Positions 994-10,225 of a stretch of DNA of 34,512 nt are shown piece after piece (the first letter of the stretch is position 1; each line of letters opens with the position of its first letter). The stretch lies in NCBI GenBank assembly GCA_026461385.1, contig JAPJNB010000024.1:1-34512 (forward strand), in the 5' to 3' direction. The position numbers were made by a program, and so were the translations under genes. The notes beneath the pieces were generated by a model that had not been told where the DNA came from, made no database searches, and was given only the letters and a program-made list of their open reading frames with translations. The DNA comes from Akkermansiaceae bacterium (lineage in GTDB: Bacteria; Verrucomicrobiota; Verrucomicrobiia; Verrucomicrobiales; Akkermansiaceae).

Positions 994-1144
994 GTTTTTC
1001 GCCTCTCCGGTGTCGTTTTCGCCTTCTCAAAGTTGTTTTCGGCCACTCTAGAGTCGTTTTCACTATCACCAGTTTCGTTTTCACGGCCTCCAAGTCGTTT
1101 TCGGCGTCTCCCGACCCGTTTTCTCCTTCTCACCGTTCGTTTTC
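994..1144. repeat. Phased T-tract array: eight degenerate 20-21 bp units
   Basis: A CGTTTTC core (first unit GTTTTTC, second-to-last fully conserved) recurs at 994, 1014, 1034, 1055, 1076, 1096, 1117 and 1138, so spacings are 20, 20, 21, 21, 20, 21 and 21 bp. The 13-14 bp between cores are variable but pyrimidine-rich, often with a TCTC/CTC stretch. On the minus strand the core reads GAAAACG. The mixture of 20 and 21 bp spacings breaks any single reading frame, so this is unlikely to be a coding repeat even though short open frames cross it. Spacing near two helical turns puts all T-tracts on one face of the helix, which could cause intrinsic bending. It sits between the sufS fragment and the secreted-protein gene. 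Function unknown. Confidence 0.8.
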
Positions 1145-2791: not shown

Positions 2792-2869
2792 CATTGGCGG
2801 CTTAAGAGAAATGGTTAGGCCGTAGGCGGGGTGCTTTGGAGTGTGAGGGATTTGAGAGTACGGGTGTGA
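2792..2869 (+). pseudogene. Remnant of a second RAYT transposase C-terminus
   Basis: Reading in the frame that ends at TGA 2867-2869 gives RLKRNG-stop-AVGG followed by VLWSVRDLRVRV. The intact gene at 2-706 ends RRLKGSGKAAAGVLWSVRDLRVRV. The last 12 residues are identical, and an in-frame TAG (2816-2818) interrupts the remnant. Upstream of about 2790 the similarity is lost, and 2664-2790 contains nothing I can identify. This shows that the piece duplicated with the sufS leader included the end of a transposase gene. Confidence 0.85.
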
Positions 2870-3124
2870 TCCGGTCGCGTGCGGCGAGTGATTCTGGCAT
2901 TGCGGACTTGGGTCACCTGTTCCACCTTGGTGCCGTTGGGCCGTACCGCCTGAATCCACGCCAATGTTGTCACCCGATTCGCTTCTTCCTGAGTTTCCCA
3001 TTTTGAATCAGACGATTCACGGTAGGCGGTTAGTCTATTTGGACAATGCAGCGACCACCCAGAAGCCTCGCGTGGTCCTTGATGCCTCGCGGCATTACTA
3101 CGAGGCGATCAATTCGAACATTCA
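2824..3124 (+). repeat. Right copy of the ~300 bp direct repeat; includes the leader and first codons of intact sufS
   Basis: Partner of 661-968 (see there for the alignment). The part from 2870 to 2963 is the leader of sufS, so any sufS promoter probably lies inside the repeat. The 40 bp identical block is at 2884-2923. I see no convincing sigma-70 promoter or Shine-Dalgarno sequence in it. Confidence 0.9.
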
Positions 3125-4181
3125 CCGAGGAACTCACCATCTCGCTCGGCAGGCGACCGAAGCATTCGAACTCGCCCGCCAAACGGTTGCGTCTTATCTC
3201 AATGCCACCACCTCCGACGAGGTGATTTTCACCGCTGGCACGACCGATGGGATCAATCTCGTTGCCAACGTTCTCGCGCTTTCGGGACTCATCCAATCGG
3301 GCGACGAGGTGCTTATTTCGACCCTAGAACATCACTCCAACATTGTGCCGTGGCAGATGCTTTGCGAACGGACTGGCGCGATTCTTAAGGTGATTCCTTG
3401 TGACGAAGACGGGGTCCTCGACCAGGCGGCATACGGTGCGCTTCTGAACGAGAGGACCCGTGTCCTTTCGCTGACGTGGATTTCCAATTCGTTCGGCACC
3501 GTCAATCCGGTCGTCGAAATGGCAGCCGCGGCAAAAGCGGCCGGAGCACTTGTGATGCTAGATGCTGCCCAAGCGGTCGCTCACACGCAGATCGACGTGC
3601 AGGCTCTGGACATCGATTTTTTGGTGTTTTCCGGCCACAAAATTTATGCGCCCACCGGCATCGGCGTCTTGTGGGGACGGGCCGCGTTGCTGGATCGCTT
3701 GCCGCCATGGCGGGGTGGGGGGGAAATGATCAAAGAGGTCACTTTCGAGAAGACCAGCTACAACGTGCTCCCATTTAAGTATGAGGCGGGCACGCCCAAC
3801 ATCGAGGGGGCCATCGCGCTTGCAGCGGCAATCGACTTCGTCAATGGCCTTGGCTTGGAGGAAATCGAGGCGCACGAGCACGCATTGATTCGCTCGGCGG
3901 CGTCGGCGCTCTCGACGATTTCAGGCATCCGTTTCTTTGGTCCAGACGACCGCGCGGGCGCGCTATCCTTTCAGGTGGAAGGCATCCATCACTACGATCT
4001 TGGCACACTGCTCGACCAGATGGGCGTGGCGGTCCGGACGGGTCATCATTGTTGCCAGCCGCTCATGGCGCGATTTGGAATGACGGGCACCGTGCGCGCA
4101 TCGTTTGCCGTCTACAATTCTCAGAACGACATCGATGCGCTGGCCGCAGCCACCACCAAGGCGGTCGCCATGCTGCGCTAA
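2964..4181 (+). CDS. sufS: SufS-type (group II) cysteine desulfurase
   Basis: 405 aa, the normal length for SufS. It is a PLP enzyme that takes sulfur from cysteine (to alanine) as a persulfide for Fe-S cluster assembly, or selenium from selenocysteine. Visible motifs are the N-terminal YLDNAATTQKP, the substrate/PLP region EHHSNIVPWQ, DAAQAVAH, the PLP-lysine K226 in FSGHKIYAPTG, and the catalytic cysteine C363 in RTGHHCCQPLM (the first of two adjacent cysteines). The GxGVLWG and ASFAVYN stretches also fit group II. ATG 2964 is supported by alignment of the N-terminus with the family and by homology to the broken copy, although no Shine-Dalgarno is present. The other suf genes are not in the window; coaC follows 45 bp downstream. 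Confidence 0.95.
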   Translation: MLSPDSLLPEFPILNQTIHGRRLVYLDNAATTQKPRVVLDASRHYYEAINSNIHRGTHHLARQATEAFELARQTVASYLNATTSDEVIFTAGTTDGINLVANVLALSGLIQSGDEVLISTLEHHSNIVPWQMLCERTGAILKVIPCDEDGVLDQAAYGALLNERTRVLSLTWISNSFGTVNPVVEMAAAAKAAGALVMLDAAQAVAHTQIDVQALDIDFLVFSGHKIYAPTGIGVLWGRAALLDRLPPWRGGGEMIKEVTFEKTSYNVLPFKYEAGTPNIEGAIALAAAIDFVNGLGLEEIEAHEHALIRSAASALSTISGIRFFGPDDRAGALSFQVEGIHHYDLGTLLDQMGVAVRTGHHCCQPLMARFGMTGTVRASFAVYNSQNDIDALAAATTKAVAMLR

Positions 4182-6110: not shown

Positions 6111-7442
6111 CTAACGGTTAGCATGACGAGTTCGTTTCCACAAGCGCGGGCTTAAGGTCAGGCAGGCAACCCCGAGTCCGGCGGCGAGGCCCCACCAAAC
6201 CCCGAGAGCCCCGAGTTTCAGGCCGAAGGCCAAGCCTGCGGCGACCGGCAAACCCACCAACCAGTACGATACAAAGCCCATGACTGCTGGAATCCTTGCG
6301 TCGCTCAGGCCACGCAGCATCGATGCCGATGCCACTTGGAGGCAGTCACATAGCTGGAAAACGCCGACAATCATCAACATCGATCCCGCGAGTTCGATGA
6401 CATCAGGTGCATGAATGAAAAGTGAAGCGAGGAATCTGCCGAATACCAAAAGCGTGCTTGCGGCGACGAGTCCATACCCGCCACCGAGCAGCCATCCCGA
6501 CGCGACAATCGGGCGCAAGCGTGCGATTTCGCCGGCACCATCGGCCTCGCCAATCCGGACAGTGAGTGCCATCGAAAGCCCAAGCGGAACCATGAATGCG
6601 GTGGCGGCGAGCGTGATCGCGATCTGGTGCGACGCCATTGCAGCTGGCCCGAAGCGGCCCATGATGAGGCCGGCCAACGAGAAGGCGGAAACTTCAGAAA
6701 TCATCTGCAGACTTGCTGGAAATCCGACGGATAGAAGGCGGCGGAGGTCTTTGAAATCCGGTGCTCGCAGCCAGTGATGAGGCACCCAATCCCGCAGCCC
6801 GTTCGCGCGGGTCAACCAAAACAGCATCGCCATTAGAATCGCCACACGAGCCATGAATGTGCCCCACGCAGCGCCATTCAAGCCCAGTGCGGGACAGCCA
6901 AGATTCCCATAAATGAGCACCCAGTTCAGTGCGGCATTCAAGCCAACGCCTCCGAGGAAAATCCAAAATGGCGGCCATGCGCGACCGAGGGCATCGGCAT
7001 GGTTTTTCAGGGAGATCGATCCCAATGCGGGAATCGCCGAGGCCATGAGAATCAGGAAAAAGCTCTTGGCTCGTTGCGAGACCTCTGCCGGTTGTTGGAA
7101 AATTTCTAACCGCATCGAGATCAGCCATGCGATGGCGAAAAGTACGAGTCCAAGTGCCAGTGCAAGATAGAGTCCGTGTCGGCAACTGCCACGCGCGCCC
7201 GCTGGATCGTTCGCGCCACGCGAGCTTGAGGTGAAAACTGAAATGCCGGTCAGCAGTCCGATCCCAAACACGAAGGGCACGTAAAACAGCGAGTTTGCAA
7301 ACGTCAGTGCCGCGAGATCAGCGACGCCGAGATGTCCGACCATCAAGGTGTCCACCACGCCCATGAGCATTTGGCTCAGTTGCCCGATCATCAACGGGAC
7401 GGCTAACCGAAGGGTCAGGCGGGATTCGTGCAGAAGGTTCAT
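6111..7442 (-). CDS. MATE-family multidrug/cation efflux transporter (NorM-like)
   Basis: 443 aa with about 12 hydrophobic segments in two halves, the normal MATE size. Family features are the N-terminal RLAVPLMIGQLSQMLMGVVDTLMVGHLG, followed by ALAALTFANS-like residues, the GANDPAGA loop, and in the second half GFPASLQMISEVSAFSLAGLIMG with ASHQIAITLAA. MATE proteins export cationic drugs and metabolites in exchange for Na+ or H+; the substrate cannot be read from sequence. It is the first gene of a two-gene minus-strand unit with the exported nuclease (2 nt apart). The promoter should lie in 7443-7568, shared with hisF in the other direction. No Shine-Dalgarno is visible. Confidence 0.92.
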   Translation of the reverse strand: MNLLHESRLTLRLAVPLMIGQLSQMLMGVVDTLMVGHLGVADLAALTFANSLFYVPFVFGIGLLTGISVFTSSSRGANDPAGARGSCRHGLYLALALGLVLFAIAWLISMRLEIFQQPAEVSQRAKSFFLILMASAIPALGSISLKNHADALGRAWPPFWIFLGGVGLNAALNWVLIYGNLGCPALGLNGAAWGTFMARVAILMAMLFWLTRANGLRDWVPHHWLRAPDFKDLRRLLSVGFPASLQMISEVSAFSLAGLIMGRFGPAAMASHQIAITLAATAFMVPLGLSMALTVRIGEADGAGEIARLRPIVASGWLLGGGYGLVAASTLLVFGRFLASLFIHAPDVIELAGSMLMIVGVFQLCDCLQVASASMLRGLSDARIPAVMGFVSYWLVGLPVAAGLAFGLKLGALGVWWGLAAGLGVACLTLSPRLWKRTRHANR

Positions 7443-7568
7443 GGTTTGTCGCGGGTGGCTTTGGTCGAGGACTTAGTTTTTCCATGATCTCGTGCGGCGA
7501 GCGATGATTTAATGGTCGATGCGCCCCTTTTTCTTGGCGTGGGCGCTGGATCAGGCTTTGCTTCGGGC

Positions 7569-8333
7569 GTGCTTGCGAAACGAATCATCCCTTGCCTCGA
7601 TGTTACGGCTGGTCGCGTCGTTAAGGGCGTGAATTTTGTGGATCTCATCGACGCCGGTGACCCAGTGGAATGTGCGATTGCCTACAACCTTCAGCAGGCG
7701 GACGAGTTGGTGTTTCTCGACATCACGGCATCGTCCGACAATCGCAAAACGATGGTCGACGTCGTTCGGCGCACGGCGGAAAAATGCTTTATCCCGCTGA
7801 CGGTGGGTGGCGGGATTCGCAGCGTAGAAAACATGCGCGAAATGCTTCTGGCTGGGGCCGATAAGGTCGGGGTGAATACTTCTGCGGTGACCAACCCCGG
7901 ATTGGTCGATGAGGGAGCGAAAGCATTCGGCAGCCAGTGCATTGTGGTAGCGATCGATGCCAAGCGGGAAGGCCCGGGCAAGTGGGGGGTTTACACGCAC
8001 GGTGGCCGCACGCCGGTCGGCTTGGATGCCGTCGAGTGGGCCAAGGAAGTCTGGCGGCGAGGCGCTGGTGAGATTCTTCTAACAAGCATGGATTCTGACG
8101 GCACCCAAACCGGTTACGACATTGAGCTCACCGCTGCAGTTTCATCGGCGATCGGCATTCCAGTCATTGCGAGCGGGGGTGCTGGAAATCTTGATCACAT
8201 GGTGGATGTGCTCAATGCCGGCAAGGCGGACGCCGTTCTAGCAGCAAGTATTTTTCACTTCGGAAAACACACCGTGGGCGAGGCAAAGCGGCATTTTGCA
8301 GCGCGCGGTGTGCCTGTTAGACCGATGGTTTGA
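7569..8333 (+). CDS. hisF: Imidazole glycerol phosphate synthase, cyclase subunit HisF
   Basis: 254 aa from GTG 7569, which gives the canonical N-terminus (M)[11 protein letters not shown] with catalytic D11. An in-frame ATG at 7512 would add 19 residues ([12 protein letters not shown]) with no family counterpart, so GTG is preferred. HisF, with HisH, forms imidazole-glycerol phosphate and AICAR in histidine synthesis. The (beta/alpha)8 barrel is visible as [45 protein letters not shown] (second catalytic Asp), [20 protein letters not shown] and [14 protein letters not shown]. It stops 3 bp before the convergent histidinol-phosphatase-like gene. hisH and hisA are not in the window, so the his genes are scattered here. 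Confidence 0.93.
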
Positions 8334-8336
8334 GGA

Positions 8337-9155
8337 TCAACGCAGGGAAGCGAGTGCATCATCGATGGACACCGATTGGCGCTGCCGGTCGATGAAGAAG
8401 CTGACCTCTGAGTAACCGACCTCGTGCAAGAGTTGCAGGGCGAATGCATAGCCGTCGCCGACGCGTTCTGCGACATGTGCGTCTGCACCGATCACCACGG
8501 GGATGTGCCGTTCTAACATCATCGCGAGTTGTGATGGAGATGGATTCATCTCCGGCAATGCTTTTTGAAGGCCACTGGTGTTCAGTTCCATGGCCACGCC
8601 TGTCGCGGCGATGCGGTCGAGCGCCCGCGCGATGTCTGGCTGGATTCGCGCAAAATTCCATTCGTCGGGAGATTCGTTTTTCACGAGATCCGGGTGAGCG
8701 AGGGTGTCGAATAGCCCGCTCTCGGCGGATTGTGCGAGGTGGTCATAGTAGAGTTGCTGGTAGCTGAAAGTGTCGCCGGTGTAGAACCGCTTGCGATAGT
8801 CAGAGACTTGGTAATGGATCGATCCAAGCACGTGACTCAAGGGCACGCGTGAGTGGAGTTCGGTGAGCCATGGCTCGACTCCCGGATAGAAATCGCTTTC
8901 CAGTCCGAGTCGCACATCGAGCTGACCCGCGAAGGCTTCGCGCGTGGCGGCGACCATGGCCACATAGTCGTCGAACTGGTCAGGTGACATCCGCACGTTG
9001 GCAGAAAATCCATCGGGCAGAGGGCAGTGGCAGGTGAAGGTGATGCCTTTAAATCCGCGCGCCAATGCCACCGCTGCGTAATTGTCGGTCGTTCCGAATG
9101 CGTGTTTGCACAAGGTCGTGTGGCAGTGTGATTCGTAAAGGAGTGGGGTAGACAT
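8337..9155 (-). CDS. PHP-domain histidinol-phosphatase (HisJ/HisK type)
   Basis: 272 aa, the usual length for the HisJ-type histidinol phosphatase, which dephosphorylates histidinol phosphate in histidine synthesis. The PHP metal-binding motifs are visible: SHCHTTLCKHA at the N-terminus, GITFTCHCPLP, LGLESDFYPG, GSIHYQ, DTLAHPDLVK, ELNTSGLQK and IGADAHVAERVG near the C-terminus. It starts 5 nt after the end of opcA and so is probably the last gene of the rpiB::glyA-zwf-opcA transcript. It ends 3 bp from hisF, which runs the opposite way. The neighbouring hisF supports a histidine role, although PHP phosphatases of other specificity cannot be excluded. Confidence 0.87.
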   Translation of the reverse strand: MSTPLLYESHCHTTLCKHAFGTTDNYAAVALARGFKGITFTCHCPLPDGFSANVRMSPDQFDDYVAMVAATREAFAGQLDVRLGLESDFYPGVEPWLTELHSRVPLSHVLGSIHYQVSDYRKRFYTGDTFSYQQLYYDHLAQSAESGLFDTLAHPDLVKNESPDEWNFARIQPDIARALDRIAATGVAMELNTSGLQKALPEMNPSPSQLAMMLERHIPVVIGADAHVAERVGDGYAFALQLLHEVGYSEVSFFIDRQRQSVSIDDALASLR

Positions 9156-9160
9156 CGAGA

Positions 9161-10225
9161 TTAGGCTTCGAGCATCGCGCGGAAAGCGGGAAGAATTTTC
9201 TGATAGAGCGAGTTGCGTCCACCGCGTGCGAGTTGGACGGCGACGAGTTCGGCGGAGGTGGTGGGATCGATGGGGGAGAGTGAGGTTGCGTGGTATGCTC
9301 CAGCATCTAACGTGCGCTCGACGTGAGATGCGCCAGCCTTTTGGGTGACTTGAACTTGGGTTGCTCCCGCACGGATGGTGACAGCGGACAACGGTGGCGA
9401 TGCTGGATTCGCGTGGAGCGCCACGGTGATCGCGGATCCGGCGCTCGACTCGAGTGCGATGGTACCTTTGTTAGAAATGATTTTCCAACCCGCTTGGACT
9501 GCAAGCCACGCGAGGACCTGCAACGCGGTGTTGCGGTGATCTGGGTGGTGGATGATCTCGACCTCTTGGATGTGAGGCAAGGCTTGCAGTGCCACTGGGT
9601 CATCAAACAGGCCGGCGATCCCCACTCGGAATTGCCACGAGCGTGTCCATGCGTGGTCCTGAATGATTAGATCTGGGTTGCTGCCGGAAACCTCCTCGAT
9701 TATGGCAAATGAAGCGGCTGGATTTACCCATGCGGAGCTGTCGATGATGAATCGATCGATCACCCGGACAAGGCTCTCCGTTAGAATATCCGACAGCTCA
9801 CCCTGCCACCAGAAGACGAGTGGCAAGTCCGAGTTCAGATGGGCGAAAACCGTGTTGCGGAAGCGGCCGGTGACGCGGCCTGTTAGGTAAAACGCGATCT
9901 GCTCGCAACACACCGATTTTCGTCCATCGGCAAGGTGGCAGTGAGCGGTGATCCAAGCACGCAGGCTAGGCGTTGGCTCGGTGCGATCGATGCCCACTAG
10001 AATCGCCCGACAGGCGTGATCGCGGGTGAGCGAGCGGATGATCTCCGAATTTTCAATGAGGGCTCCGGGTTTCTCCGAATAAACCACCAGATTCATCAAC
10101 GAAGCATTCGTTCGTGCATCATCCTGTTCCCAGAGTTTGCGCAGCTCGAGGTCGATCGCAGCCACGGGTACGGCGACCCCAAGCTCGGGGCAGACGTCTG
10201 GGATGGGATCGGTGGATGGGCTCAT
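9161..10225 (-). CDS. opcA: OpcA-like glucose-6-phosphate dehydrogenase assembly/activator protein
   Basis: 354 aa from ATG 10225 (MSPSTDPIPDV). The frame is open further upstream into the zwf 3' end, but the added residues are low-quality and overlap zwf. OpcA binds and activates or assembles glucose-6-phosphate dehydrogenase; it is best known in Cyanobacteria and Actinobacteria. Visible family features are an N-terminal ARTNASLMNLVVYSE with RDHACRAILVGID, the central SDLPLVFWWQGEL stretch, IDSSAW, and the DLIIQDHAWTRSWQFRVGIA region. It lies 52 bp downstream of zwf on the same strand, which is strong contextual support. The last ~100 residues (GATQVQVTQKAG) resemble the C-terminal OpcA domain. 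Assignment is good, activity inferred. Confidence 0.85.
   Translation of the reverse strand: MSPSTDPIPDVCPELGVAVPVAAIDLELRKLWEQDDARTNASLMNLVVYSEKPGALIENSEIIRSLTRDHACRAILVGIDRTEPTPSLRAWITAHCHLADGRKSVCCEQIAFYLTGRVTGRFRNTVFAHLNSDLPLVFWWQGELSDILTESLVRVIDRFIIDSSAWVNPAASFAIIEEVSGSNPDLIIQDHAWTRSWQFRVGIAGLFDDPVALQALPHIQEVEIIHHPDHRNTALQVLAWLAVQAGWKIISNKGTIALESSAGSAITVALHANPASPPLSAVTIRAGATQVQVTQKAGASHVERTLDAGAYHATSLSPIDPTTSAELVAVQLARGGRNSLYQKILPAFRAMLEA

Follow-up and report, generated by a model that had tools for sequence, protein, structure and literature searches.

Tandem arrays with a period of two helical turns are, we are nearly certain, associated with two families of genes, A and C, in the order to which this bacterium belongs, and the array of phased T-tracts in the window (the whole 34,512-bp stretch analysed here) is very probably, judging from its alignment, homologous to the arrays that lead family-A genes. 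The window array is as follows.

996 to 1166, + strand: phased array of nine TTTTC cores, very probably a displaced copy of a leader array from family A (unit-by-unit alignment)

The TTTTC cores begin at positions 996, 1016, 1036, 1057, 1078, 1098, 1119, 1140, and 1162, at steps of 20, 20, 21, 21, 20, 21, 21, and 22 bp (mean 20.57 bp over the first eight cores). The eight phased T-tract units at 20-21 bp described in the sequence-only reading are present, and a ninth core follows 22 bp further on. The CGTTTTC motif that it had assigned to all eight sites is exact at 1014, 1055, 1076, 1096, 1117, and 1138, but the site at 994 is GTTTTTC and that at 1034 TGTTTTC. Its spacers, said to be degenerate, are so only in part: CTC recurs about one turn past each T-tract, and arrays at other loci can be matched to them one unit after another. 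Counting TTTTC spaced 19-22 bp apart, the window has at most nine in an unbroken series, whereas 300 first-order Markov simulations never exceeded two. Within the array, no more than 3 consecutive columns fell under 0.5 bit. As regards a REP/RAYT element, in which palindromic REPs lie beside a RAYT gene, the window has a RAYT-like ORF at 2-706, and the dyad symmetry of the array unit was not significant (p 0.125). When the 3.8-Mb genome that carries the window was searched for the exact pattern TTTTC-N14-16-TTTTC-N14-16-TTTTC, all six matches fell inside the window array, and the idea of an own-genome family of TTTTC arrays was therefore rejected.

A pattern search in 99 relatives led to genome G032, in which contig C47 carries an array that is built of these units, but longer, directly upstream of a gene of 233 aa, a member of family A. 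The window's own genome has a gene 87% identical to it (C137:59734-60432). This gene too has such an array, truncated where the contig ends, and the window array is 78% identical to this C137 leader. Arrays from the window, C137, G229, and G032, the last three lying directly upstream of family-A genes, could be aligned unit by unit; the G032 array is longer by about 63 bp (three units). Between the window array and its three homologs, the T4 positions mismatched at 0/28, 1/32, and 0/32 sites, and the remaining positions at 29/109, 30/128, and 34/123 (23-28%). Similarity of the window copy to the family-A leaders fades about 25 bp ahead of the family-A start codon, and no family-A gene stands behind it, an unrelated DUF4034 gene being there instead. 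Because the leader array aligns with the window and the gene is absent, the window appears to hold a stray leader copy; the family-A gene would here have been lost or not carried along, and what remains would be a relic array with its T-tracts still in phase. The sequence-only reading had staked itself on there being either another copy or predicted curvature, and copies exist.

The features around the window array are these.

2 to 706, + strand: ORF of a Y1/IS200-like (RAYT-like) transposase, truncated where the contig begins (PF01797 at E 0.0035, which does not reach the Pfam cut-off)
633 to 965, + strand: incomplete second copy of the first sufS codons and the region upstream of them, together with the end of the transposase-like ORF (85% identity over 334 columns to ~2796-3121)
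1158 to 2663, + strand: ORF of a secreted-looking DUF4034 protein (PF13226, E 1.4e-9; hydrophobic leader in the translation)
2964 to 4181, + strand: intact class-V aminotransferase, SufS/Csd-like (PF00266, E 7.4e-143)

The dead sufS copy noted ahead of the array is real, but at 333 bp (633-965) it is longer than had been stated and includes the tail of the transposase-like ORF. It forms, with 2796-3121, a pair of direct repeats on either side of the array and the DUF4034 gene, and these repeats may mark how that block was inserted. The nearest named relative of the window's SufS is from a Verrucomicrobiaceae MAG (L036, 71%), which points to Verrucomicrobiales as the origin of the window. The true start of the DUF4034 ORF is likely at 1350, about 190 bp past the array. 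Relatives of the DUF4034 gene were found in 13/69 genomes, the window's own included, and none of the nine loci that were fetched had an upstream array at a threshold of 0.6, so that the proposed tie between the array and the secreted-protein gene was rejected. Nor was a role of the sufS junction supported, the earlier reading having asked whether copies occur at similar junctions: homologous arrays precede family-A genes, not such junctions.

Association of the arrays with families A and C was assessed by counting upstream regions in which, within 600 bp, an 84-bp window was at least 60% self-identical at a lag of 10-70. Arrays were found upstream of 38/65 family-A genes (34/60 plus 4/5 further) and 34/41 family-C genes (30/35 plus 4/6 further), leaving 27 and seven regions, respectively, without one at this threshold. 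The lag was 21, 42, or 63 in 37 of the 38 family-A arrays (one 41 and one 43 being counted), with 66 in the remaining one, and in 33 of the 34 family-C arrays, with 44 in the other. Control ORFs from random stretches gave 7/882 (1/121 in the window's own genome, G000; 2/168 in G032; and 4/593 in G004), and both G032 positives flank a family-C array. The 600 bp downstream had an array in 6/57 family-A and 2/35 family-C cases; four of the six family-A arrays had lags that are multiples of 21, all in members lacking an upstream array (L192, L193, L195, and L201). Upstream regions shorter than 100 bp (L138, L190, L200, L337, and L342), duplicates with identical last 100 bp, and matches without the N-terminus were excluded from the counts, and as the loci share ancestry, nominal p-values for these counts overstate their independence. 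The arrays comprise about 6-21 units (medians 13-14 in the two families). From the array end to the start codon the median distance is 68 bp in family A and 171 bp in family C, and the A+T content of this gap exceeds that of the array. One family-A locus, L205, has upstream a 66-bp higher-order repeat of about 22-bp subunits with variable steps.

In G032, a scan of stretches, some picked around family-A genes, one around a TTTTC array, and the rest at random, revealed arrays upstream of all seven family-A genes and of two other ORFs of about 225 aa, which represent families B and C:

L117:6284-6958: family B, about 225 aa, array upstream in G032
L252:4474-5163: family C, about 225 aa, array upstream in G032

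These nine array loci have eight distinct units, all of about 21 bp. Family B has one weak relative in the phylum, and its array rests on the one locus, where the gene and array lie between an ORF that reads as LRR-type and a TIR/NB-ARC/TPR protein (L117:2742-5717 and 7180-9588). Family A, of about 230 aa, is undescribed: it had no match in Pfam, NCBIfam, or PHROG; PADLOC and PDB gave no relative of weight, with no solved structure below E 0.04; and defence-system models gave none that was convincing. Its 17-member profile matched 28/288 sampled genomes of the order, with seven copies in G032 and seventeen matches in G084, and, across the phylum, 4/337 genomes, one of them from another order, in which the array was not found. 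No homologs were found on plasmids, and none on viral contigs save a chance match (L254) that the family profile did not confirm; no neighbor gene recurred, and what did recur were frames antisense to the family-A gene and frames of the array. Family C, likewise without a Pfam match, reads as having a helical start and a beta-rich, FN3-like end. It occurs in 41/189 genomes of the order, including the window's own, where a member with an array lies on C240, and in 6/337 across the phylum, two of them outside the order. Profile comparison of A and C detected no homology.

Across these loci the period is constant and the letters vary. In 42 fitted arrays, hand-picked on their scores (fits that scored poorly were left out, as were L205 and L157, whose steps are irregular), the 554 steps averaged 20.96 bp: 481 were of 21 bp, 53 of 20 or 22, eight of 19 or 23, and six of 18 or 24, in a fit that allowed periods of 20-22 only and whose per-base gap cost disfavors three-base changes. 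The 30 family-C arrays that passed the threshold, out of 35, gave 307 steps of 21, 65 of 20 or 22, and eight of 18 or 24 among 398. These numbers bear on the possibility that the arrays encode heptad repeats, 21 bp being seven codons. Open frames do run across many arrays, the window's included, but one-base changes outnumber three-base changes (53 vs 6 and 65 vs 8, with an alignment penalty that favors small gaps), the window array and its C137 homolog differ by a one-base gap, and the variation has no common third-position pattern; we regard a coding function as exceedingly improbable. The earlier claim that the target of selection is the helical spacing, not a protein, is upheld by this excess of off-by-one over off-by-three steps and by the conserved T4 positions. 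That T-tracts are the essence of the arrays did not hold up: they are limited to the window's subfamily, and the units of most related arrays are different. With the unit nearly always about 21 bp and the letters changing from gene to gene, it is probably the helical spacing that matters.

A second reading is that the DNA is intrinsically curved or wrapped, its phased bends used by nucleoid proteins or RNA polymerase in the absence of a specific ligand. Selection on shape should yield just this, one helical period shared by arrays whose sequences are private. When curvature was predicted by a wedge model and compared with shuffled sequences, 18/30 arrays exceeded 95% of shuffles, including the three closest homologs of the window array (0/300 shuffles as curved); the window array itself was modestly curved, 7.7% of shuffles equalling it. 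The other 12 arrays, including all five family-C arrays tested, did not surpass 95%, and L145 and C_L261 were predicted to be straight. Moreover, bends add up in any two-turn repeat, which makes a positive prediction weak. The arrays resemble phased A-tract DNA, as treated in two reports (PMC3940949, PMC4060949), in that T-tracts of the window's subfamily are in helical phase and many arrays are predicted to be curved; they differ in that most have no A-tract, and some are predicted to be straight. A/T-tracts in helical phase characterize the window, C137, G229, and G032 arrays and not most others. Dyad symmetry is no more general: the units had it in 16/30 family-C arrays and in 0/36 of the set comprising families A and B and the window. 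The family-C units, in the upstream regions L303-L332, often contain an inverted repeat, for example GGGATnCATCCC, GGTAGCGCTACC, and GTGGACnnGTCCA. As neither curvature nor dyads are common to all arrays, the property that they share is the two-turn period.

Within one genome the units differ completely from locus to locus, yet similarity of units correlated with similarity of proteins across genomes (Mantel r 0.51, 0/2000 permutations, N 31), and among the 386 pairs below 40% identity r was 0.36. One unit, TCCAAAT...CGGTCGG, is common to family-A genes that are 37-39% identical and come from different families of the order. Such sharing is more than shape needs, and curvature as the whole explanation seems unlikely to us; the sharing would also exceed what drift should leave of a neutral repeat. 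The correlation can, however, come from plain co-inheritance with slow change.

Arrays also occur away from the families. G003 and G034 have many TTTTC arrays and no family-A gene, and those of G040 are distant from its family-A genes. The L118-L128 loci from these three genomes include many nearly exact 21-bp TTTTCC arrays upstream of ordinary genes, with one unit shared among several contigs and by two species; in L118 the array edge carries an inverted unit (GCTTTTCCAACGCGTTGGAAAAGC), as do some other edges in this set. In the window's own genome, a 21-bp array of the CTTAAGCCTCCGTAATCGACG type lies at a contig start before a glycosyltransferase-like ORF (L180:1-80, G000:C170). Such cases demonstrate that arrays may be moved elsewhere or persist after their gene is gone, which is the situation in the window. 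They also favor the view that the arrays are neutral or selfish minisatellites, made by slippage, which gather in tolerant intergenic space and spread: some arrays exist without family genes or away from them, a unit is repeated on several contigs, two arrays in the window's own genome (the window's and that of L180) precede unrelated genes, and near-identical units within some arrays imply expansion. Yet slippage has no preference for 21 bp that would recur at dozens of loci whose units are unrelated, and repeats of other kinds in these samples show periods of, for example, 12, 14, 15, 36, and 45. Because arrays crowd upstream of A and C, and T4 positions are conserved even in the stray copy, we consider a minisatellite origin distinctly unlikely.

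The position of the arrays, ending a median of 68 or 171 bp before the start codon, would suit an RNA-level element, either a transcribed leader of 21-nt repeats or guide-like RNAs as in TIGR-Tas, and the dyads frequent in family-C units fit as well. TIGR arrays (PMC12045711) consist of two alternating repeats with variable spacers of about 9 nt and an associated Nop-domain protein; like the arrays here, they are tandem, mostly of 5-15 units, locus-specific in sequence, and adjoin a single-gene protein. Ours have a 21-bp unit and no 9-nt variable spacers: runs of columns under 0.5 bit were at most 5 in 63/63 arrays. No Nop domain was found by Pfam: at E up to 1, none of 17 family-A members matched (sequence profile only). 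Membership in TIGR-Tas was rejected on these two grounds, and since RNA function leaves a two-turn B-DNA period unexplained, we give the RNA-level explanation only a slim chance.

We tentatively favor, at somewhat short of an even chance, a cis-acting array on which protein bound to one helix face controls the adjacent gene. The array would present one short motif on the same face of the DNA every two turns; a protein would bind cooperatively along it and bend or stiffen the region, and this would set the expression of the gene behind. In favor of this model are the alignment with family-A leaders in three genomes, the crowding of arrays upstream of A and C against few in control ORFs and downstream regions, the near-constant 21-bp step, units that are distinct within G032 yet track protein similarity between genomes, the conserved T4 positions, the dyads of family C, and the gap richer in A+T. 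The reader might be the product of the locus itself or a co-inherited partner, and the observation that unit sequence tracks protein subfamily, not genome, hints that one of these is the most likely. Recognition of the array by its own gene product is nonetheless rather unlikely. The proteins of both families are acidic (median pI 5.6 in A and 5.3 in C), and domain and profile searches found no DNA-binding domain in either, which speaks against the gene product as reader; the lack of detectable homology between A and C makes a shared mode of self-binding doubtful. Also against the model are the upstream regions that have no array, the arrays of G003 and G034, where family A is missing, and the lack of dyads in units of family A, family B, and the window.

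The repeat of the H. pylori sialic-acid adhesin is a simple sequence repeat, not one of two-turn units. What is proposed here resembles that rheostat in that a repeat controls the gene that it adjoins, a repetitive DNA element being described as regulating the adjacent gene (PMC4081817).

Similar in form are the iteron, operator, and centromere arrays, direct repeats beside the gene of their binder, such as plasmid iterons with Rep and parC with ParR. Our arrays share with these the helical-turn spacing of direct repeats, borne out by the mean step over 554 steps, the position beside one gene, and a unit private to the locus. They differ in being chromosomal with many loci per genome, in the acidic proteins lacking a recognizable DNA-binding domain, and in the absence of recurrent neighbors for family A. 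It is possible, though we doubt it, that these loci constitute a new array-gene class, in which several unrelated orphan families carry private, self-addressed two-turn arrays, each read by its own product or partner. The letters of such arrays could change freely as long as the unit stayed at two turns, and one genome would thereby maintain many mutually distinct loci, as with the eight units at nine loci of G032.

Searches of published papers, largely those outside subscription journals, returned no description of such arrays. If our interpretation is correct, an unannotated architecture precedes two undescribed multi-copy families, present in 28/288 (A) and 41/189 (C) sampled genomes of the order, and would offer the first functional handle on both orphan families. 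The dozens of arrays with common helical spacing and unlike sequence would then be a rare natural experiment, in which what phase contributes to a DNA-protein array can be told apart directly from what the letters contribute.
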